Assembly: GCA_902612125.1 (NCBI GenBank)
Contig: CACMBV010000019.1
Location: 1 to 41,817, forward strand
DNA from: an uncultured Verrucomicrobiota bacterium
GTDB lineage: Bacteria > Verrucomicrobiota > Verrucomicrobiia > Opitutales > Seribacteraceae
Length of the DNA: 41,817 bases
Direction: 5' to 3'
Part shown: piece by piece, positions 29,595 through 39,080 of the stretch
Layout of the letters: every line of letters starts with the position of its first letter
How positions within the stretch are numbered: the stretch's first letter is position 1
Position numbers and translations under genes: made by a program
The notes under the pieces: generated by a model
Seen by the model: only the letters and a program-made list of their open reading frames with translations
Told to the model about the DNA's origin: nothing
Database searches by the model: none

Positions 29595-31880
29595 TTATTT
29601 GGTTGTCATTACCCAGACACCATCCCATTTACCTTTGGGTGGATTTTTCTTCATATGGTCACAGCGATCTAAATAGAGCTGGGCTGCTTTATCATCCGGG
29701 TTTATTTTCTTTACATCCTTGAAAAGCTTAATCGCCTGATCCCATTTTGCTTCATTCCATGAGCGGTAACCATCATTAAAAATACCTAGAGCTTCTACGA
29801 GGTTTGGATAGCTTGAATCATCGTGAAAATCGAGCACCTCGTAAACGCCAACCGGTTCTGTCTTTCCCTTAACAATAACATAGTCAACTTGGCGGGTTCG
29901 ATAGGTAGCCTTGACAGCTTTGTATGTAAATTCGCTTATTAGAATGTGGGCTCCATACTGTTTACAGGCACTTTCAATTCTTGCCGCAAGATTTACTCCA
30001 TCGCCGATAACCGTATAATCCATCCTTTTGGGCGAACCAATATTTCCTGAAACAATTGAATCGGTATTAATTCCCATACCATGATCAATTGCCATCTTGC
30101 CTTCAGTCGATCTTTTATCATTGAAGACCTTCAAGTCGGTCATCATCCGGATGGCAGCTCTGACAGCCCGGTCCGGATCGTCATCATGAGGAACCGGTGT
30201 TCCAAAAATACACATCATTGCATCCCCGATAAATTTATCAAGCATTCCCCCTTCGTCTGTGATACAGTCTACCATGATAGTAAAATATTCATTGAGTAAT
30301 TTTACCGTACCTTGAGCCCCAAGTTCTTCCGTTATGGTTGTAAAACTCCTCACATCAGAGAATAACACGGTTCCAACGCTTTGCTTTCCACCCATTATAT
30401 CATCGCTGTCTCCAGCATTCATAAGCTGATCGGCCAGTTCCGGGTCCATGTATCTTGACATGGTGGATTTCATTCTTTTTTCAGAACTAATATCTTCGAT
30501 CATGAGCATAGTTCCAAGATTTTCCTTCTTTTGACCTAAAAGCGGGAGGAGTGAAACATTTACCGAAAGTTTTTCGCCTTCCAAGACAATCTCTGCATCC
30601 AGAAAATCCTCGTCTTCTTCAACACTACCGAGTTTGTTAAGTAGCCAATCGTTATTGTCGCTCAAAATATCTTTTATCGGGTGCTCTAAAATTTCAGAAA
30701 TTATGGGAATTTTTAGAATTCTCAGGCCGGCAGTGTTACAAGTTTTAACAATTCCATTTTCGTCTATCGTGAGAACAGCGTCGTGCATACTCGAGAGAAT
30801 ACTTTCAGAATAGTTTTTCTGATTTTGGACATCATCAAACAACTTGGCATTTTCGATTCCCATTGATATTTGGGAAGTGAACGCAGCCAGTCTTTTTTCG
30901 TCCTCAGAATTAAATGAGCCACCCCTTTTGTTTAATACCTGACTAACGCCAATTGTTTTTCCTTCCTTATTTAGTACGGGCATACAGAGGATGGATCGAG
31001 TAAAAAATCCGGTTTGTTTATCAAAGCTTGGATTAAATCTCAAATCTGCGTAAGCGTGAGGAATATTAACCGGCTTACCGGAGGTAAAGACAGTACCTGC
31101 GATTCCTAAGTGGTTCGGAAAGCGAATGACAGATTTTTCATCAAGTCCTTCCCCAACCTCAGTGTAAAGCTCATTACTTTTTTCATCATTAATGAAAAGA
31201 GTTGCTCTTTCACAATCTAGCATGGTTGAGATTGTGGTAATAATTTTCTGGAGTAGGGGAGTGAGCTCCAGCTCAGAGGAGACTTGAGATACAACATCGA
31301 GAAATTCGAGTTCCTGTTTTCTTGCGGCTTCAATTTGCTCTACAATAATATTCCCTTGTATGGCTATAGCCGCTTGTTCCGTCATTGCTTCCAATAGTTC
31401 TAAATCTTCCTGCTCAAACTCACCATCGATCTTGTTGAGAATTTGAGATACGCCAATTTCTTCTCCTGCTATGGTTCTCAGAGGTGCACAAAGAATACTT
31501 TTTGTTCTGAACCCTGTGCGTACATCAACTGCTTTGTTGAATCGCTCATCTTTGTAAGCATCATGAATGATTACGCCTTGGTTTTTGGTAAAAACCCATC
31601 CGGCAACTCCCTTGGAATTAAGGATTCGGATTTCACGGCGAAAGTTACCCTGCGCTATTCGTGAATAGAGTTCCCCCGTCGATGAATCATTCAGAAAAAT
31701 CGTGCCTCTCTCAGCACCTATTGTGCTCGTGGTTATTTTCACAAGTGTTTCGAGTGCTTCATCTAAGGTTTTGGTTTTGGCTAAGTCAGTGGTGACTTGA
31801 AGCAACATATCAGAAAAGCGCTCCGTTCTCTTTGATTTAGCATTTTTAAAGGTCTTATTTTTTTTGTCTTCGGGTGTCAT
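29595..31880 (-). CDS. Class III adenylate cyclase with two GAF domains and a PAS domain
   Basis: The 761-residue soluble protein (ATG at 31880) carries GAF1 (about 25-180), GAF2 (about 195-350), a PAS-like domain (about 365-480), a class III cyclase catalytic domain (about 500-690) and a short TPR-like tail. In the catalytic domain both metal aspartates are present (FSDVRSFT and GDAMMCIFG), the lysine in LDKFIGD and the Asp in YTVIGDGVNLAARIES fit ATP as substrate, and the transition-state Asn/Arg are in NLAARIES. GAF domains often bind cyclic nucleotides or other small ligands, so feedback is likely. It overlaps the upstream coiled-coil gene by 26 bp, so translation is coupled. Confidence 0.93.
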   Translation of the reverse strand: MTPEDKKNKTFKNAKSKRTERFSDMLLQVTTDLAKTKTLDEALETLVKITTSTIGAERGTIFLNDSSTGELYSRIAQGNFRREIRILNSKGVAGWVFTKNQGVIIHDAYKDERFNKAVDVRTGFRTKSILCAPLRTIAGEEIGVSQILNKIDGEFEQEDLELLEAMTEQAAIAIQGNIIVEQIEAARKQELEFLDVVSQVSSELELTPLLQKIITTISTMLDCERATLFINDEKSNELYTEVGEGLDEKSVIRFPNHLGIAGTVFTSGKPVNIPHAYADLRFNPSFDKQTGFFTRSILCMPVLNKEGKTIGVSQVLNKRGGSFNSEDEKRLAAFTSQISMGIENAKLFDDVQNQKNYSESILSSMHDAVLTIDENGIVKTCNTAGLRILKIPIISEILEHPIKDILSDNNDWLLNKLGSVEEDEDFLDAEIVLEGEKLSVNVSLLPLLGQKKENLGTMLMIEDISSEKRMKSTMSRYMDPELADQLMNAGDSDDIMGGKQSVGTVLFSDVRSFTTITEELGAQGTVKLLNEYFTIMVDCITDEGGMLDKFIGDAMMCIFGTPVPHDDDPDRAVRAAIRMMTDLKVFNDKRSTEGKMAIDHGMGINTDSIVSGNIGSPKRMDYTVIGDGVNLAARIESACKQYGAHILISEFTYKAVKATYRTRQVDYVIVKGKTEPVGVYEVLDFHDDSSYPNLVEALGIFNDGYRSWNEAKWDQAIKLFKDVKKINPDDKAAQLYLDRCDHMKKNPPKGKWDGVWVMTTK

Positions 31881-34458
31881 TTTCAATTTTGGAACGAAGT
31901 TCAATTATGGTTTCTTGCAACTGCTTAAACTCCATTGTTTTTTGTTGCTTTTCTTTTTGTAAATTTTGTTGATGAAGACTTCCTTTTTGATCTATCTCGT
32001 CCCGAAGTGCTCGTACCATTGTTTTAAAATGATTGAGTTCGTGACTTTGAGAAGACATAACATTTTGGACGGCATCTTGTTTTGCAATTTCAAGTAATTC
32101 AAGTTCATTACGCAAAGACGCAACCGTACTACGAAGAGCATTGAGTTCAAGCGAAGATTTTGAAAGAGATCGTTGTACTTCAGACTGTATTTTATGCTGA
32201 CTTTGTTCAAGTTTTTCACGCAAATCTGAGATTGTCCTTCTTAAAACTTCATTTTCAGTAGCAACTCTCGAGACAGCTAGCTGGACCGCGTTAGACTTTT
32301 CTATATTTGCTTGATCAAGACTCTCTCGGGTTTGGCTAATATTGGTCTTGAGATTGGTAATTTCTTTTTGAAATCTGGCGGTAACGGATTGGGATATGTC
32401 TTCCTTTTCAATAATTAATTGTTCGCACTTTTCTCTTGCCTGTACCAGGGAGGATTGAAGTGACTTGATTTCTTGTGCATATCGGGATGATATTTTTCCT
32501 TCCAGTTCAGCTTTGTCCAATTCTGATTTCTCTAGCTCAGCCCGAAGATCTTCGATGGTTCTTTTGAAATCCTTTACTTCCATCTGACTGGCTGCAGTAA
32601 TTTGTTGAATTTTTTGCTCAGATCGACCTTGTTCTCGGTCCAGTTTTTCGCGAAGCGAAGACAAAGAAGATCTCAAATGATTGATTTCGACTTGAGAGTT
32701 TGAAAGAGCTGCCTGCACCTTGATTTCCTGCTCGTTTTGGCTATTTTCCAGTTCGGCTCTAAGATTGGAGGCAGTCTCTCGAAGACTCTTAATTTCGTTC
32801 TCGGATCTAGCTTCCACAGCTTGAACTTTGTCCTCTACTTTTACTTTTTCCTGATCAAATCTCTCTCTTACAGTAGCTAATGTATTTTTTAATTGAATTA
32901 TTTCTTGATTGGAACGGGAAGCTGCTTTTTCAATCTCATCTTGTTTTTCCAAGTCTTTGCTCTCGAGTTGTAAACGAAGATTTGAAATAGTTTTTTTAAA
33001 TTGTTCCAGTTTCTGATTACCTTCAGATAATGCCTTCTGCAACTGATCTTCTACCTTTGATTGGTTGATGTCCAGTTTCTCCCGCAAGATACCAAGCGAC
33101 TTTTTAAGCTGCGCAATCTCATTCTGTGATTTTGCTGATGCTTTTTGTACAGCGTCGTCTTTTTCAGCCTTAGCTTGTTCGAGCTCAGCCCTAATCTCCG
33201 AAATGGTGTTTTTTAAAGATCGAATCTCAACTTGACTGGACGCATGTATTTTTTGAATGGATGACTCATGTCGAACCTTAACATCCTCAATGCCTGTCCG
33301 GAGAGTTGAAATAGTATCTTTTAGCTGTTTTATCTCATTCTGACCCTCCGACCTTGCGTTTTGTACTTGCTCTTCTTTGTCTAGCTTAGATTTTTCTAGC
33401 TCATCTCTTAATTCTGCGGTGGACTCTTGTAGTGATTTAATTTCCGAGTTGGCAGCGGAAATGGCTCGCTGTACTGCATCTGCCTCATGATCTTTTGCGA
33501 CATCTAGTTTATTGCGGGTTTGCAATAAGGAATTTTTGAGATGTTTGATTTCCGTAGATGAACTTCTTAGTGCCTGTTGAACCGCATCCTGTTTAGAAGA
33601 GTCTGCTTTGTCTAACTCATCCCTTAGCGTTTCAATTGACTTTTTTAGGCTTTGCACTTCAGATTGATTTTGACTGACAAGTTTCTGAATACGGTCATCC
33701 TCGCGAGCTTTTAAAAATTCAAGCTTGTCTCTGGATTTTGAAAGTGCCGTTTGTAGCGACTTAATTTCGGCGGAGCTTGATGAAATTGCAGCTTGTACAG
33801 CAGTAGAGGTATTGTTTTCAGATTCCTCAAGTTCTGTCCTTAGGGTGGAAATAGTTTCATGAAGGGAATTGGTCTCAATTTGTGATGATGCCTGAATTTT
33901 CTGAATCTTATCTTCATGCTGAAGAGATAATCGATCAATGCTTTCCCTTAATCTTAGCGATGAATTTCTAAGTTGGGTAATTTCATGATTTGATTCTTTG
34001 CGAACGAGTTGTGCCACTTCTTCCTTTTCTTGCTCGGCTAAATCAAGCCTTTGTCTCAAGGTGAAAATGTTTTTTTTAAGATCATCAATTTCTAGTTTAG
34101 ATGAACTTTTTTCCCTCTGGATATTTTCTTCAACCTGTAACTTTTGTTCCTCAAGCTTAGCTCTCAAATCATTAATGGTCTTCTTGTATTGATCCTGAGA
34201 CTTGGTGGCAGCAATTTCAATTTTTTGTTTTTCGTCGCTAAATTCATGTATCTTCAAGTCTATCGAAGATCTAAGCTCGTTTATGGAATGCCTGAGGAGC
34301 GTTTTTTCATCTTCAGACTTTCGATAAGCCTCTTGAACTTCTGAGTCGTGATTAAGTTCAGATTGCTCAAATTCCTCCCGTAATGAAACGATTGTTTGCT
34401 TTAGAAACCGATTCTCATGTTCCAACAAATCAGTCTCTTTTAGGGGTAATTGAGACAT
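31855..34458 (-). CDS. Giant coiled-coil protein of 23 exact 36-residue repeats
   Basis: From ATG 34458 the protein has 867 residues: a 22-residue lead, then 23 repeats of exactly 36 residues with no insertion or deletion, then a 17-residue end. The repeat consensus is roughly I-S-x-L-R-x-E/K-L-E-x at positions 1-10, V-Q-x-A near 19-22, and E-I-x-x-L-K-x-T/S at 29-36. From repeat 6 on, units largely alternate between R-x-E-L and R-x-K-L forms, giving a 72-residue super-repeat. No signal peptide or membrane helix, almost no Pro or Cys. It should form a very long helical rod, perhaps a cytoskeletal filament or scaffold. It is translationally coupled to the adenylate cyclase gene. I know no family for it. 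Confidence 0.88.
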   Translation of the reverse strand: MSQLPLKETDLLEHENRFLKQTIVSLREEFEQSELNHDSEVQEAYRKSEDEKTLLRHSINELRSSIDLKIHEFSDEKQKIEIAATKSQDQYKKTINDLRAKLEEQKLQVEENIQREKSSSKLEIDDLKKNIFTLRQRLDLAEQEKEEVAQLVRKESNHEITQLRNSSLRLRESIDRLSLQHEDKIQKIQASSQIETNSLHETISTLRTELEESENNTSTAVQAAISSSSAEIKSLQTALSKSRDKLEFLKAREDDRIQKLVSQNQSEVQSLKKSIETLRDELDKADSSKQDAVQQALRSSSTEIKHLKNSLLQTRNKLDVAKDHEADAVQRAISAANSEIKSLQESTAELRDELEKSKLDKEEQVQNARSEGQNEIKQLKDTISTLRTGIEDVKVRHESSIQKIHASSQVEIRSLKNTISEIRAELEQAKAEKDDAVQKASAKSQNEIAQLKKSLGILREKLDINQSKVEDQLQKALSEGNQKLEQFKKTISNLRLQLESKDLEKQDEIEKAASRSNQEIIQLKNTLATVRERFDQEKVKVEDKVQAVEARSENEIKSLRETASNLRAELENSQNEQEIKVQAALSNSQVEINHLRSSLSSLREKLDREQGRSEQKIQQITAASQMEVKDFKRTIEDLRAELEKSELDKAELEGKISSRYAQEIKSLQSSLVQAREKCEQLIIEKEDISQSVTARFQKEITNLKTNISQTRESLDQANIEKSNAVQLAVSRVATENEVLRRTISDLREKLEQSQHKIQSEVQRSLSKSSLELNALRSTVASLRNELELLEIAKQDAVQNVMSSQSHELNHFKTMVRALRDEIDQKGSLHQQNLQKEKQQKTMEFKQLQETIIELRSKIENDTRRQKK

Positions 34459-34530
34459 GCTTTTAATTAATATAGTTAAAATAAAATTGTAAATACAAAG
34501 TTGCACTCGCTTGATACAACCTGATAGATA

Positions 34531-35730
34531 ATGTTCATTCCCATGAAGCATTTTTTTCTCTGTTTAAATACTACTCTGTTATTAATATATTTCATGGGCT
34601 GTGTTGAAAACTCATCATCTGATTTACATTCGAAAGAATCATCTATGAAAAGTGATCCTGAAGATATCGTAGATTTGTTATTTTCTCCAAGTAATTTATC
34701 CGACCTTAGTGTCCTTTTATCTGACTCTGAATCCAATCTTACGGTCCCTGATGAAAAGGCACTTTCGGAATTTTATGAGGGTACAGACCAGAATTTGAAT
34801 ATTGATTTAAGTCAAATAACTAAAATGGAAGAGCCTCCTATCGATGAGAATGTAACTCCTTTTGAAGTTCTTCCCTCGATTACAACCAAGGATATTGAAT
34901 CAGAAACAATGTTATTTCTTGACAAGCTTGAAAATGAAAATGTGATTAAAGATGCAACCATCGCCAGCCTTCAGGAATTAAACAAAAAGTTATTGGAAGA
35001 GATTACATTTCTGAGGGAGAACCAAAAAGAGAAATCCAAAGGTTCATTTCCGGTTGATAAAACCGAAGACTCATTAAATTCGCAAAGTGACCTGTACAAT
35101 GATCTTAAAAATAAACTCAACATTCAACAAACCCAAATAAATGAGCTACTTAGTCAAAATGAAAGTCTGGAAAAAAAGGTTCTTGAATTGACCAAAAACC
35201 CCTATGCCAAAGTCAGATTATCTGCACCTTCATCAACCCCAGAAGGTGAATATACGAAAAAAATACTGCCTAAATCCTCTACATCTAAATCCTCCGACCT
35301 TCATTTTGACGCAGTGGTTACTTCAATTAACGGAAAAAATAAGGAGGCCTTCTACACAGAATTTTTTCTTATCAAAGAAGATTTAGAGTCGCTGCTAATT
35401 AAGAGTGAAATTATTCTTTCAGATTATCCCAAAATAGATTCATACAGCGAATTGTGGGCACGTTCTCGAAAGAATCCTTTTTTATACCCGGGCATTCAAA
35501 AAAAAATCAGAACCTTGTTGCTTAACGAAGTAAATCTTGGTGAAGGGAAAAGAGTGCGTACAGACATCGACGGTGCTGGATCGATAAGTCAAATTGAAAG
35601 CGGAAATTATTTTTTGGTGGGCAGTGCAGCTCTGGGCAAGATTGGTGTAACTTGGAATGCACCAATTAACATTTCTTCCGGTCTTAATAAATTATCTTTA
35701 ACGCTTGCCAACACCTCATGGAGTTTGTGA
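34531..35730 (+). CDS. Putative lipoprotein with coiled-coil middle and unknown C-terminal domain
   Basis: The product is 399 residues from ATG 34531, or 395 from ATG 34543 (MKHFFLCL), the better-looking signal start. The signal peptide ends in a lipobox-like YFMGC, so lipid anchoring is likely. Residues 115-215 include an acidic, Leu/Glu-rich coiled coil (KLENENVIKDATIASLQEL, QTQINELLSQNESLEKK). The last 140 residues form a compact domain (DLHFDAVVTSINGKNKEAFY to LTLANTSWSL) I cannot assign. It is divergent from the giant coiled-coil gene (72 bp) and 58 bp before the DUF1538 gene. Confidence 0.72.
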   Translation: MFIPMKHFFLCLNTTLLLIYFMGCVENSSSDLHSKESSMKSDPEDIVDLLFSPSNLSDLSVLLSDSESNLTVPDEKALSEFYEGTDQNLNIDLSQITKMEEPPIDENVTPFEVLPSITTKDIESETMLFLDKLENENVIKDATIASLQELNKKLLEEITFLRENQKEKSKGSFPVDKTEDSLNSQSDLYNDLKNKLNIQQTQINELLSQNESLEKKVLELTKNPYAKVRLSAPSSTPEGEYTKKILPKSSTSKSSDLHFDAVVTSINGKNKEAFYTEFFLIKEDLESLLIKSEIILSDYPKIDSYSELWARSRKNPFLYPGIQKKIRTLLLNEVNLGEGKRVRTDIDGAGSISQIESGNYFLVGSAALGKIGVTWNAPINISSGLNKLSLTLANTSWSL

Positions 35731-35788: not shown

Positions 35789-37960
35789 ATGAGCACTGAA
35801 CAATCATCAGATTCCAAAAAGTTGCAACTCACCGCACAGCAAAAACTATCTATTCTTTTCTCATTTGCGAAGGATAAAGTGTTAGAACAGATACAGTGCG
35901 TATGGTTCATCATATTATATCTCATTGTCTTCCAAGTACTTGTTTTAGGTCTGCCGATCGTTTACTCATTAATGATTGCCGTTGGAATTATCATTGTAAT
36001 CATCGGACTAGCCTTCTTCATGGAAGGCTTAAGATTAGGTCTTATGCCACTTGGAGAAACTCTAGGATCAAGCCTTCCAAGGAAAAAAATACTTGGTTTG
36101 CCCTGTCTGCCTACAAGTCTTGCATTCGGTTTTATTTTGGGAGCTTTTGCAACTTTTGCTGAACCTGCAATTGGAGTTTTAAGGGCAGCTGGATCAGGGG
36201 TAGACCCCACCGCAGCCCCCTTGCTCTGGACAATCCTGAATACAGGAGCCGGTATGCTGGTTAATTGTGTGGGTGTAGGTGTTGGGATAGCCGTATTATT
36301 GGGGGTTTTGCGCTTCTACAAAGGATGGTCCCTTAAGCCTTTTATCTACACTGGGGTAATCGTCTTGTCCTGCATCACTTTATACATGCAATTTTCCGAC
36401 GATCGTTTAAAGCATGTCCTCGGTTTGGCATGGGACTGCGGTGCTGTCACGACCGGACCGGTCACAGTGCCACTTGTGCTTGCTTTAGGAATAGGAGTTT
36501 GCCGGATTGTCTCAACTGGCGGTTCCAGTAACACGGGGTTTGGAGTGGTTACTTTAGCCTCTCTTTTTCCTATCCTCGCTGTTATGTGCTATGCACTTTA
36601 TTTGTTTAACGGAGATAATTATTACAAGGCTACGCTTTCAAAAGCTGAATGGCATACAAATGCCGGAGATTATGGAACCAATTATCCCAAGGATTACCAA
36701 ACTTTTGGAGATCTCGTTGCCAAGGATAGACAGGCAGCTTCCCAAGGAGTGGATGAAACTGAATTGTTTTGGTCTATTTCCGCAGATGAGAGAAAGACAG
36801 TTGATGAGTTTTTAAAGAACAATCAGAAGTTACCTGAAGGCTATGCTCTAAAAACCAGGATAACTGAAGGCAAAATTGTCCCTTCAGCCATCTCATCTGT
36901 TGAAGAGAATTCCCGAGAAAATGTGGAGGTTCAAGGTGCAAAAACTTATGTCGTGAGGGAAGGATTCAAGGCTCCTGACACAGTCTGGAATGAAGATGCT
37001 GACATCGCCACTGCCTTTACAAACAAGTTCGACTTTTTCCCTAACACTTTCAAACCTCAGGAGGATAAGAACGGAAACGGCATTCTCGATCAGGGCGAAG
37101 ACTTTTACAGCATTAATGAGGAGACGGGAGCGATTGACTACAGCAAAGGTAATGGTGTTTTGGACGGGCCTGATCAGGATAGAGGTGCATTGGAAGGTGC
37201 TATTTGGGCGATCGTGCCTTTATGTTCAATTCTTCTTATTGTTCTCATGGCGGGATTGAGACAAAAGCCAAAATATATAGACGAACTTTTCATCGGTATA
37301 TCCTGTGCAGTCATAGGAATGTGTTTATTCAATCTCGGTATTTCACTGGGTTTGACCCCGTTAGGTGAACAACTTGGTGGAAATGTTGTTTCGAGTTTCG
37401 CATCGATTCAACCATGGCAAAGCGAAGGATTTGTAGAGCCAATATTCAGGTCTTCAACCGCAGGAAAATGCCTCGCCATTCTTTTTGGCTTTATCCTTGG
37501 ATATGGAGCTACCTTGGCTGAGCCCGCCTTGAATGCATTGGGTTCAACCGTTGAAAAAATTACTGTAGGTGCTTTTAAGAAAAACTTACTCATGCAGGCG
37601 GTTGCCACGGGAGTTGCCTTGGGTATAGCCACCGGAGTGGCTAAGATCGCGTTTAACCTCGAATTATGGTACTTATTAATTCCACCTTATGCCATGCTTT
37701 TGATCCTCACCTTTATATCGAGTGAAGATTTTGTGAATTTTGGTTGGGACAGTGCAGGAGTTACTACCGGACCTATTACCGTTCCTTTGGTTTTGGCGAT
37801 GGGACTAGGGATTGGAGCCAAAACCGGAGCAATTGATGGATTCGGAGTACTTTCTCTTGCTTCAGTTGGCCCGATCATAACCGTTTTGACCGTGGGCTTA
37901 CTCGTTAGGAAAAAGCCGAGTGCAGCTAATGACTCTACCGAAGAAATGGAGACTGCCTAA
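35789..37960 (+). CDS. DUF1538 two-repeat membrane protein with EF-hand-like insert
   Basis: The 723-residue protein has two homologous membrane halves (about 30-275 and 470-710). Each half repeats GLxLGLxPLGExLG, then FGFILGxxATxAEPA, then the signature AVTTGPVTVPLVLALGIG (first, about 217) or GVTTGPITVPLVLAMGLG (second, about 657), which identify DUF1538. Inverted-repeat-like duplication suggests a transporter; the substrate is unknown. Between the halves is a soluble region of about 190 residues with a near-perfect EF-hand loop DKNGNGILDQGE (about 425-436) and a second Asp/Gly-rich loop (NGVLDGPDQD), so Ca2+ binding is likely. It ends 1 bp before the PII-like gene, its probable regulator. 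Confidence 0.88.
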   Translation: MSTEQSSDSKKLQLTAQQKLSILFSFAKDKVLEQIQCVWFIILYLIVFQVLVLGLPIVYSLMIAVGIIIVIIGLAFFMEGLRLGLMPLGETLGSSLPRKKILGLPCLPTSLAFGFILGAFATFAEPAIGVLRAAGSGVDPTAAPLLWTILNTGAGMLVNCVGVGVGIAVLLGVLRFYKGWSLKPFIYTGVIVLSCITLYMQFSDDRLKHVLGLAWDCGAVTTGPVTVPLVLALGIGVCRIVSTGGSSNTGFGVVTLASLFPILAVMCYALYLFNGDNYYKATLSKAEWHTNAGDYGTNYPKDYQTFGDLVAKDRQAASQGVDETELFWSISADERKTVDEFLKNNQKLPEGYALKTRITEGKIVPSAISSVEENSRENVEVQGAKTYVVREGFKAPDTVWNEDADIATAFTNKFDFFPNTFKPQEDKNGNGILDQGEDFYSINEETGAIDYSKGNGVLDGPDQDRGALEGAIWAIVPLCSILLIVLMAGLRQKPKYIDELFIGISCAVIGMCLFNLGISLGLTPLGEQLGGNVVSSFASIQPWQSEGFVEPIFRSSTAGKCLAILFGFILGYGATLAEPALNALGSTVEKITVGAFKKNLLMQAVATGVALGIATGVAKIAFNLELWYLLIPPYAMLLILTFISSEDFVNFGWDSAGVTTGPITVPLVLAMGLGIGAKTGAIDGFGVLSLASVGPIITVLTVGLLVRKKPSAANDSTEEMETA

Positions 37961-37961
37961 A

Positions 37962-39080
37962 ATGACTACCTTGCAAAATTCTAAATCTGTCTCACTGCTT
38001 AATTTAATTCTTCCAAAAGAATCTGTCGTAAAGGTATCGCAAGCTCTGCAGGATACTGGTGCGAAAGGGATCTTTCAAATATCCGCAAGAGGTTCTATTC
38101 TAAACGATGGTGGTTTTTTGCAGAAAATGTTTCCACCGCCGGCACCTGAGCAAATTCTCTTACAGGCATTAGTGCCAAATAGTATGATTGAAGAGGTTAT
38201 CGACTCTTCAGTTAGTGCGGGGAATCTTGAGAAGGTTGGTGCAGGAGCAGTTTTTACAATAGAATGCAATGACGCACATTTTGCCTCCAAATTCCCAACT
38301 GAGACTCTTAGTGAGGATGATGTTGCTTCAGACGGAAAAGCTGAGATGGAAGCTATATGTTGCATCTGCGAAAAGGGAATTGCTGATGATATTGCCAAGG
38401 CAGCCTTGGAAAATGGGGCACCTGGACCAACTGTTACTTTCGGTGAGGGAGGTGGAGTGAGGGATAAAATACCTATTCTTAGAATCACCAAGGGTCCAGA
38501 GAAAGAATTTGTTTGGTGTGTGGTTGATAAATCCGAGGCAGATGATGTTTTCGCTGAAATGGCACGTGCAGGAAGAATTACAGAACCGGGTCGTGGATTC
38601 ATGTACTCCATTCCCGTTTCTTCTGGATTAATTAATGTAAGTAGCACAATTTCCTCTTCCGCACATGGTGCAAATATGGAGCAGATAATCTCAGCTATTG
38701 ACGAAATAAAGGGCGGAAAAGACTGGAGAACATCTGCTGACGATCCCAAGTCAAAAGCACTCAAAACAACTTTTCTTGAAAACCTTGTTGGGCTTTATTG
38801 CATAGTACCCAGAGACCAGTATTCGACGGTTTATGATGCTATTCTTGAAGCCGGAGCACCTGGAGTAAGCACGAATTTTGGCGTCATGATTGACGCCGAG
38901 GATTCCGAAGAGGGACAGCATCAAAATGAAGAATGGGCTCTTGTGTATACATCAGTTGGACCCAGCAATGTTGACTCAGTTAGAGACTCTGTGCAGAAGG
39001 ATATTGAAAAACTTGGTATCGATCGATTTGCTTTTTATACTTTACCTATACCAAGGGCTTTAACATACCTTGGAGGTTAA
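37962..39080 (+). CDS. Protein of three fused PII-like domains
   Basis: From ATG 37962 the protein has 372 residues. Three segments each follow the PII layout (beta-alpha-beta, T-loop, beta-alpha-beta): 8-104 (LLNLILPKESVVKVSQAL ... LEKVGAGAVFTIE, with a B-loop-like turn), 127-221 (MEAICCICEKGIADDIAKAA ... GRITEPGRGFMYSI) and 275-372 (LVGLYCIVPRDQYSTVYDAI ... IDRFAFYTLPI). A helical linker (about 236-256) with HGANMEQIISAIDEIKGG separates the last two. PII proteins are homotrimers that sense nucleotides and control transporters and enzymes. Here one chain could form a pseudo-trimer. The basic nucleotide-binding residues of classic PII are not obvious. Adjacency to the DUF1538 gene (1 bp) suggests it regulates that protein. 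Confidence 0.85.
   Translation: MTTLQNSKSVSLLNLILPKESVVKVSQALQDTGAKGIFQISARGSILNDGGFLQKMFPPPAPEQILLQALVPNSMIEEVIDSSVSAGNLEKVGAGAVFTIECNDAHFASKFPTETLSEDDVASDGKAEMEAICCICEKGIADDIAKAALENGAPGPTVTFGEGGGVRDKIPILRITKGPEKEFVWCVVDKSEADDVFAEMARAGRITEPGRGFMYSIPVSSGLINVSSTISSSAHGANMEQIISAIDEIKGGKDWRTSADDPKSKALKTTFLENLVGLYCIVPRDQYSTVYDAILEAGAPGVSTNFGVMIDAEDSEEGQHQNEEWALVYTSVGPSNVDSVRDSVQKDIEKLGIDRFAFYTLPIPRALTYLGG

Follow-up and report, generated by a model that had tools for sequence, protein, structure and literature searches.

PII proteins are widespread signal proteins that have been described as homotrimers, with Tyr51 as the uridylylation site (PMC6243067). According to one review, they gate AmtB, NrtABCD, UrtABCDE and SbtA, and their control of transporters appears to be restricted to those able to function as trimers (PMC10710835). 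The DUF1538 family has a described pair in Halomonas UmpAB, two 7-TM proteins that co-precipitate and that behaved as an Na+(Li+,K+)/H+ antiporter when tested in E. coli; the active clone carried four described ORFs, with no PII gene among them (PMC5484666). Activity without a cloned PII gene fits a PII protein that acts as a regulator and not as an essential subunit. A machine-learning study of growth pH also lists DUF1538 in a table of features, within its section devoted to the main genes of pH adaptation (PMC13255231), which is in line with cation/H+ exchange.

The window analyzed here is the whole 41,817-nucleotide stretch of contig CACMBV010000019.1 (assembly GCA_902612125.1), from an uncultured Verrucomicrobiota bacterium of the order Opitutales. 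The features of the locus are as follows.

34531-35730, + strand: lipoprotein-like coiled-coil protein upstream of the transporter (lipoprotein from a reading of the N-terminus)
35789-37960, + strand: fused UmpA-UmpB-like DUF1538 protein, 723 aa (PF07556, E = 6.2e-107)
35909-36598 and 37226-37900, + strand: the two DUF1538 domains, halves of the fused transporter
37064-37099, + strand: EF-hand-like loop DKNGNGILDQGE, residues 426-437, within the insert that separates the DUF1538 halves (pattern match)
37962-39080, + strand: three-domain PII-type protein, 372 aa plus stop (ORF translation, Pfam, AlphaFold2, profile comparison)
37989-38282, + strand: PII-type domain 1, residues 10-107, with an invariant G93 in its GxG B-loop across 17 divergent triples (AlphaFold2, conservation)
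38346-38636, + strand: PII-type domain 2, residues 129-225, the closest to PII and most strongly conserved of the three (Pfam, AlphaFold2, profile scores, conservation)
38448-38507, + strand: T-loop region of domain 2, residues 163-182 (G165, R167, L173, R174, K181 and E182 invariant in 17 divergent triples)
38583-38600, + strand: B-loop of domain 2, residues 208-213, EPGRGF, with GxG kept and F at the K90 equivalent (conservation, alignment)
38670-38729, + strand: conserved linker between domains 2 and 3, A...Q.....D.......WR, residues 237-256 (motif counts)
38775-39065, + strand: PII-type domain 3, residues 272-368, divergent and without a GxG B-loop (AlphaFold2, conservation)

We consider it probable that the three-domain protein (the triple) acts as a PII-type signal subunit dedicated to a fused UmpAB antiporter, and that its single chain forms an asymmetric pseudo-trimer in which one T-loop works. 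The DUF1538 gene ends in TAA, followed by one A and the ATG of the PII gene at 37962, so the original prediction that the PII gene starts 1 bp past a duplicated DUF1538 gene was correct. The same prediction had called the transporter uncharacterised, and here it erred, since Na+(Li+,K+)/H+ antiport by UmpAB has been published (PMC5484666). The two DUF1538 halves score far below the NCBIfam equivalog cut-offs (197.4 against 490 bits for UmpA and 158.9 against 500 bits for UmpB), so cation/H+ antiport is assigned from the family, and the neighbor is a probable Na+/K+ antiporter. The AlphaFold2 model of the transporter was poor (pLDDT 62), and Foldseek with this low-confidence model found no match at E ≤ 0.001. 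The transporter alignment (A4) comprised 25 of 33 loci and the window protein. The loop DKNGNGILDQGE resembles the EF-hand consensus; among DUF1538 ORFs, the pattern was found in 29 of 33 from close relatives and in none of the 44 others. From this pattern, the insert may bind calcium if it lies outside the membrane. The lipoprotein-like gene at 34531-35730 possibly belongs to the operon as a third gene: tblastn matched its protein in 35 of 95 loci, including two duplicates, in close relatives and two further families, and no Pfam family matched it at its cut-off. Upstream of the operon on the opposite strand (31855-34551) lies an 898-aa coiled-coil-like ORF of repeating segments.

The linkage of PII and DUF1538 genes was surveyed in 49 loci, 42 around DUF1538 matches and seven plasmid records with a DUF1538 match. 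Four of them have no more than two bases of contig beyond the DUF1538 frame. In all 45 loci with downstream sequence, a PII gene lies directly downstream on the same strand, which strongly supports the claim that the PII gene is a dedicated partner of the DUF1538 transporter. This count includes plasmid loci L106-L109, reached through PII matches in records that the DUF1538 search also found. Standing outside it are the loci found through PII (L033-L042 and L043-L078), which hold most DUF1538-positive genomes of the window's order, as well as G413, with a DUF1538 match below the cut-off, and plasmid matches H5 and H7. The PII gene starts between -20 and +33 nt from the DUF1538 stop in 43 of 45 loci; in L103 and L104 it starts about 26 and 43 nt after the stop.

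The neighbor survey of fused versus single PII genes that had been suggested gave 11 loci with a single PII gene, three with two separate PII genes (L118, L119 and L124), nine with a two-domain PII and 21 with a three-domain PII; one further PII gene (L122) is cut after 104 aa by the contig end. L088, counted as a triple, is also cut by a contig end and has the linker motif. All nine non-fused DUF1538 loci have one single PII gene. The nine two-domain PIIs and the three-domain PIIs of the 45 stand beside a fused DUF1538 gene wherever that gene is complete. The DUF1538 gene is incomplete in L124 and L095. The singles of L100 and L120 adjoin fused DUF1538 genes. In L048, outside the 45, the DUF1538 gene next to a triple has a broken frame and is split into two ORFs, an exception to the fusion. 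Plasmids of Methylocystis and Chelativorans carry split DUF1538 genes with a single PII, those of Paraclostridium, Peptoclostridium and Vescimonas a fused DUF1538 gene with a PII of 222-224 aa, and unannotated plasmids of Subdoligranulum and Acetoanaerobium likewise a fused gene with a PII of two-domain size. A scan of viral_contigs with a plasmid DUF1538 protein found no relative.

Some observations were made in passing at these loci. In L118, L119 and L124, the second gene of the tandem has diverged far more than the first, and the pair may form a hetero-oligomeric PII that occurs in nature. Two genomes in which one DUF1538 gene stands with one PII gene carry an amidohydrolase-like gene, two genes upstream in one (L103:2336-3637, Pfam match) and directly upstream in the other (L104:5752-7185). 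In G029 (L042:4504-5328 and L073), the three-domain PII gene is interrupted by an in-frame TGA near a contig end, and another contig of this genome holds the N-terminal part of the same kind of protein.

The triple, which is carried by some marine bacteria, was matched at E ≤ 1e-90 in 36 of 92 related genomes, with the match in G029 interrupted, and is thus neither chance nor an assembly artefact. A looser tally of 42 of 92 genomes at E ≤ 0.001 takes in weak matches to ordinary PII. A scan of genome_contigs gave 36 triple loci, all in records titled Opitutales, Opitutia, Opitutae or Verrucomicrobia/Verrucomicrobiota; both scan patterns lie within the domain 2 T-loop and, therefore, the scan misses divergent triples. 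An assembly fusion of three genes was rejected, as the protein recurs across 36 of 92 genomes and 36 named loci. DUF1538 itself was found in 27 of 387 genomes across the phylum (26 above the cut-off), in 48 of 372 of the order and in eight of 384 of the class.

The presence of three PII units in one chain was confirmed by Pfam, structure prediction and domain profiles. Against Pfam P-II (PF00543), the 372-aa protein scored 33.3 bits (E = 6.3e-8, cut-off 25) with its best stretch at 129-220; in a genome-wide PF00543 scan, two places of the triple gene scored 18.7 and 16.2 bits, below the cut-off. A profile was cut for each domain from an alignment of 35 sequences, and all three matched a profile of seven DUF1538-linked single PIIs, domain 2 best (1.1e-25) and domains 1 (2.8e-11) and 3 (3e-8) more weakly. 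The AlphaFold2 model was built from 35 sequences (alignment A3, 34 of the 36 genome_contigs loci and the window protein, with L046 and the interrupted L073 left out) and reached pLDDT 79.3 and pTM 0.79. It has three β-α-β-β-α-β units at about 10-107, 129-225 and 272-368, the double β-α-β fold of PF00543, and low-confidence stretches at 229-243, 257-265 and 315-319. The boundaries first proposed (8-104, 127-221 and 275-372) were right to within a few residues. Among the best 50 of 1283 Foldseek matches of the model were PII chains at TM 0.59-0.74 by target, each spanning about 90-110 columns or one domain; within these 50, some low-TM matches to other folds outrank PII by E-value. The protein departs from a homotrimer of ~112-residue chains in being one 372-residue chain with three units. 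The T-loops of the domains differ in the alignment, as had been predicted. The accompanying idea of three ligand clefts found no support in domain 3, which has no GxG B-loop.

Conservation was measured in 17 divergent triples out of 27 aligned. In the triples, domain 2 stays PII-like while domains 1 and 3 drift: mean pairwise identity is 43.5% in domain 2, 25.6% in domain 1 and 23.0% in domain 3. Residues 230-260, mostly unordered in the AlphaFold2 model, reach 40.8%. Seventeen positions are invariant (G93; G152, G165, R167, L173, R174, K181, E182, G210 and G212; A237, Q241, D247, W255 and R256; G298 and E324). Nine of these fall in domain 2, six of them in its T-loop and two in its B-loop, and five fall in the linker between domains 2 and 3. 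The linker motif A...Q.....D.......WR was present in 56 of 56 triples, 16 of which were also among the 17 that defined the pattern, and was absent from nine doubles and 19 single or tandem genes. Over 5622 ORFs, the pattern had 63 matches; besides the 56 triples these were one triple cut short, four records that duplicate others and an interrupted triple present twice, and none lay outside three-domain PII proteins. A stricter version matched 25 of 64 PII-match ORFs of at least 330 aa, not all of them triples, and the counts given here come from the looser one. The T-loop pattern was found in 51 of 56 triples, in none of nine doubles and in five of 19 single or tandem genes.

As a rough expectation, pTM would be 0.33 for one rigid domain, 0.55 for two and 0.78 for three. 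The observed 0.79 exceeds the value expected of loosely tethered domains, and the model thus points to units that pack within one chain. The three units most likely form a pseudo-trimeric ring, a geometry that we infer from this packing. Ring closure as the sole driver of the triple is counted against by the nine two-domain versions, and a two-domain PII (nine loci) alone does not close a three-ring. Another possible arrangement is that triple chains oligomerise, with three copies of domain 2 forming a classic PII-like ring, domains 1 and 3 adding extra layers or arms, and the nine-domain three-fold complex sitting on a trimeric UmpAB. The retention of strong PII character by domain 2 only and the existence of two-domain chains would suit this arrangement. 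However, the monomer pTM points to rigid packing of all three domains inside one chain, and UmpAB is described as a hetero-dimer (PMC5484666), from co-immunoprecipitation that leaves the stoichiometry unfixed. We therefore regard such a complex as unlikely, though a serious contender to the single-chain pseudo-trimer.

The origin of the triple was followed in a quick tree of 94 domain rows and 104 columns, with SH-aLRT support only and 30 of 91 inner branches left open. The rows came from 17 of the 27 aligned triples, all nine doubles, 13 singles, three pairs of tandem genes (3+3), three cut genes and three of six classic PIIs. The second domains of the 17 triples form one clade (SH-aLRT 98) and so do the third domains (93), which makes a single origin of the triple likely; the first domains are broken up on long branches and do not form one clade. 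The units of two-domain proteins group with 11 singles of non-fused loci (98), with two singles of fused loci outside. Doubles and triples look like independent expansions, and the relatives with fewer units hint at how the triple came about. Median scores against the single-PII profile were 73 bits for the second, 25 for the first and 13 for the third domain of triples, 85 and 43 for the C-terminal and N-terminal units of doubles, and 126 and 28 for the first and second tandem genes, with classic PII at 47. That the first and third domains of triples fall below classic PII counts against the preferred reading. Because six of the 13 singles, as well as a close duplicate of the first tandem genes, are among the seven rows behind this profile, the scores of these two groups are raised. 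By these sequence comparisons, one unit keeps its PII character in each expansion and the others drift.

Classic PII proteins contact ATP and 2-OG through Q39, K58, K90, R101 and R103. These positions were compared between classic GlnB-type genes of six related genomes, used as the reference, and 23 DUF1538-linked rows (domain 2 and 22 single or tandem PIIs, some cut short). Equivalents of K90, R101 and Y51 are absent from all 23 linked rows where covered, three rows being cut before R101, and the Y51 column is a gap in all 23. None of the linked rows that cover the R103 column, which lies outside the domain 2 row as cut, has R there. Seventeen of 23 rows, domain 2 included, have K at the K58 position, the only one of the five that domain 2 keeps; G87 and G89 are each kept in 12 of 13 singles. 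The early impression that the usual basic nucleotide-binding residues are not obvious was therefore well founded, with K90 and R101 unmatched in domain 2 and the 22 other linked rows. The canonical ATP/2-OG residues are mostly lost and the ligand may still be a nucleotide. C-di-AMP was rejected as the ligand for want of support, with no DAC family gene in the window's genome (64% complete).

The loss of these residues could mean that sensing itself was lost and that the PII chain serves the antiporter in structure or assembly and does not regulate it through a ligand, and the near-fixed DUF1538-PII operon is consistent with this. We think it improbable: the T-loop and B-loop of domain 2 hold eight of the 17 invariant positions, which suggests working loops, and the Halomonas UmpAB clone described as active in E. 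coli has no PII gene (PMC5484666). It is far less credible that the triple is a general nitrogen/carbon PII that replaces GlnB and lies beside the transporter by operon history only. This reading fits the window's genome (64% complete), with no other PF00543 match at E ≤ 0.1, but it was rejected since a separate classic GlnB-type gene (GDGK and RIRTG motifs) is carried by six of six related genomes whose weak PII match was inspected, and DUF1538 adjacency holds in 45 of 45 counted loci.

Under the preferred reading of a dedicated signal subunit, the three PII units of one chain would pack on each other, probably as a pseudo-trimeric ring. Since the three units lie in one chain, the sensor would be asymmetric by construction. 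Unit 2 alone would keep the ancestral face, and units 1 and 3 would serve mainly as scaffold. The T-loop of domain 2 (G-x-R-D...L-R...K-E) is the probable plug or docking loop on the cytoplasmic side of UmpAB, its GxG B-loop is the probable site of a small ligand at the boundary with a neighboring unit, and the poorly ordered linker between domains 2 and 3 is a probable docking element for the transporter. When the ligand binds or leaves, the T-loop would move and thereby inhibit or release antiport, in the manner of GlnK on AmtB and SbtB on SbtA; docking, ligand and the sign of control are what we infer here. With separate PII units, the gate would be a trimer, and with the fused transporter it would have become one asymmetric chain. 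There is close to an even chance that the pseudo-trimeric sensor evolved in step with the antiporter fusion, so that the symmetry of both was broken together, leaving one working T-loop, one main ligand cleft and a 1:1 complex with fused UmpAB. If true, this would be a PII-gated family of monovalent cation/H+ antiporters and a PII serving a non-trimeric transporter.

These loci predict a regulator for the UmpAB antiporter family. In the literature searched, as far as its accessible text goes, no regulator of UmpAB/DUF1538 was found reported, and the sole co-mention of DUF1538 and PII concerned an unrelated sequence motif. Nothing relevant was found on fused, tandem or three-unit PII in a search whose reach excluded most subscription journals. 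The PII proteins beside DUF1538, which range from a single unit through a tandem pair and a two-unit chain to three units, are a natural series in which to test the three-foldness of PII and the adaptation of a sensor to a partner of other symmetry.

Compared to known systems, the triple is like classic PII (GlnB/GlnK, PF00543; GlnK-AmtB) in its fold, order of elements, T-loop and GxG B-loop positions and linkage to a transporter. It differs in having three units per chain, a T-loop about five residues shorter without Y51, and replacements at K90 and R101, and a DUF1538 protein takes the place of the ammonium channel as its partner. SbtB is likewise a PII-type protein with a secondary transporter as partner (SbtA, for bicarbonate), and control of UmpAB by the triple would be the counterpart. 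SbtB is described as trimeric on trimeric SbtA (PMC10710835), and it is likened to the triple by description and not by sequence; the transporter gene adjacent to the triple is DUF1538, not sbtA. The UmpAB pair of Halomonas zhaodongensis resembles the window's transporter in its two homologous 7-TM proteins, which in the window are joined as one chain with an insert bearing the EF-hand-like loop; the main text of that paper (PMC5484666) contains no mention of P-II or nitrogen regulatory. Genes annotated as 'P-II family nitrogen regulator' beside DUF1538 on plasmids of Alphaproteobacteria and Clostridia share the operon position of the triple, but they are single-domain (112-122 aa) or two-domain (217-238 aa) proteins and lack the linker motif found between domains 2 and 3 of the triple.
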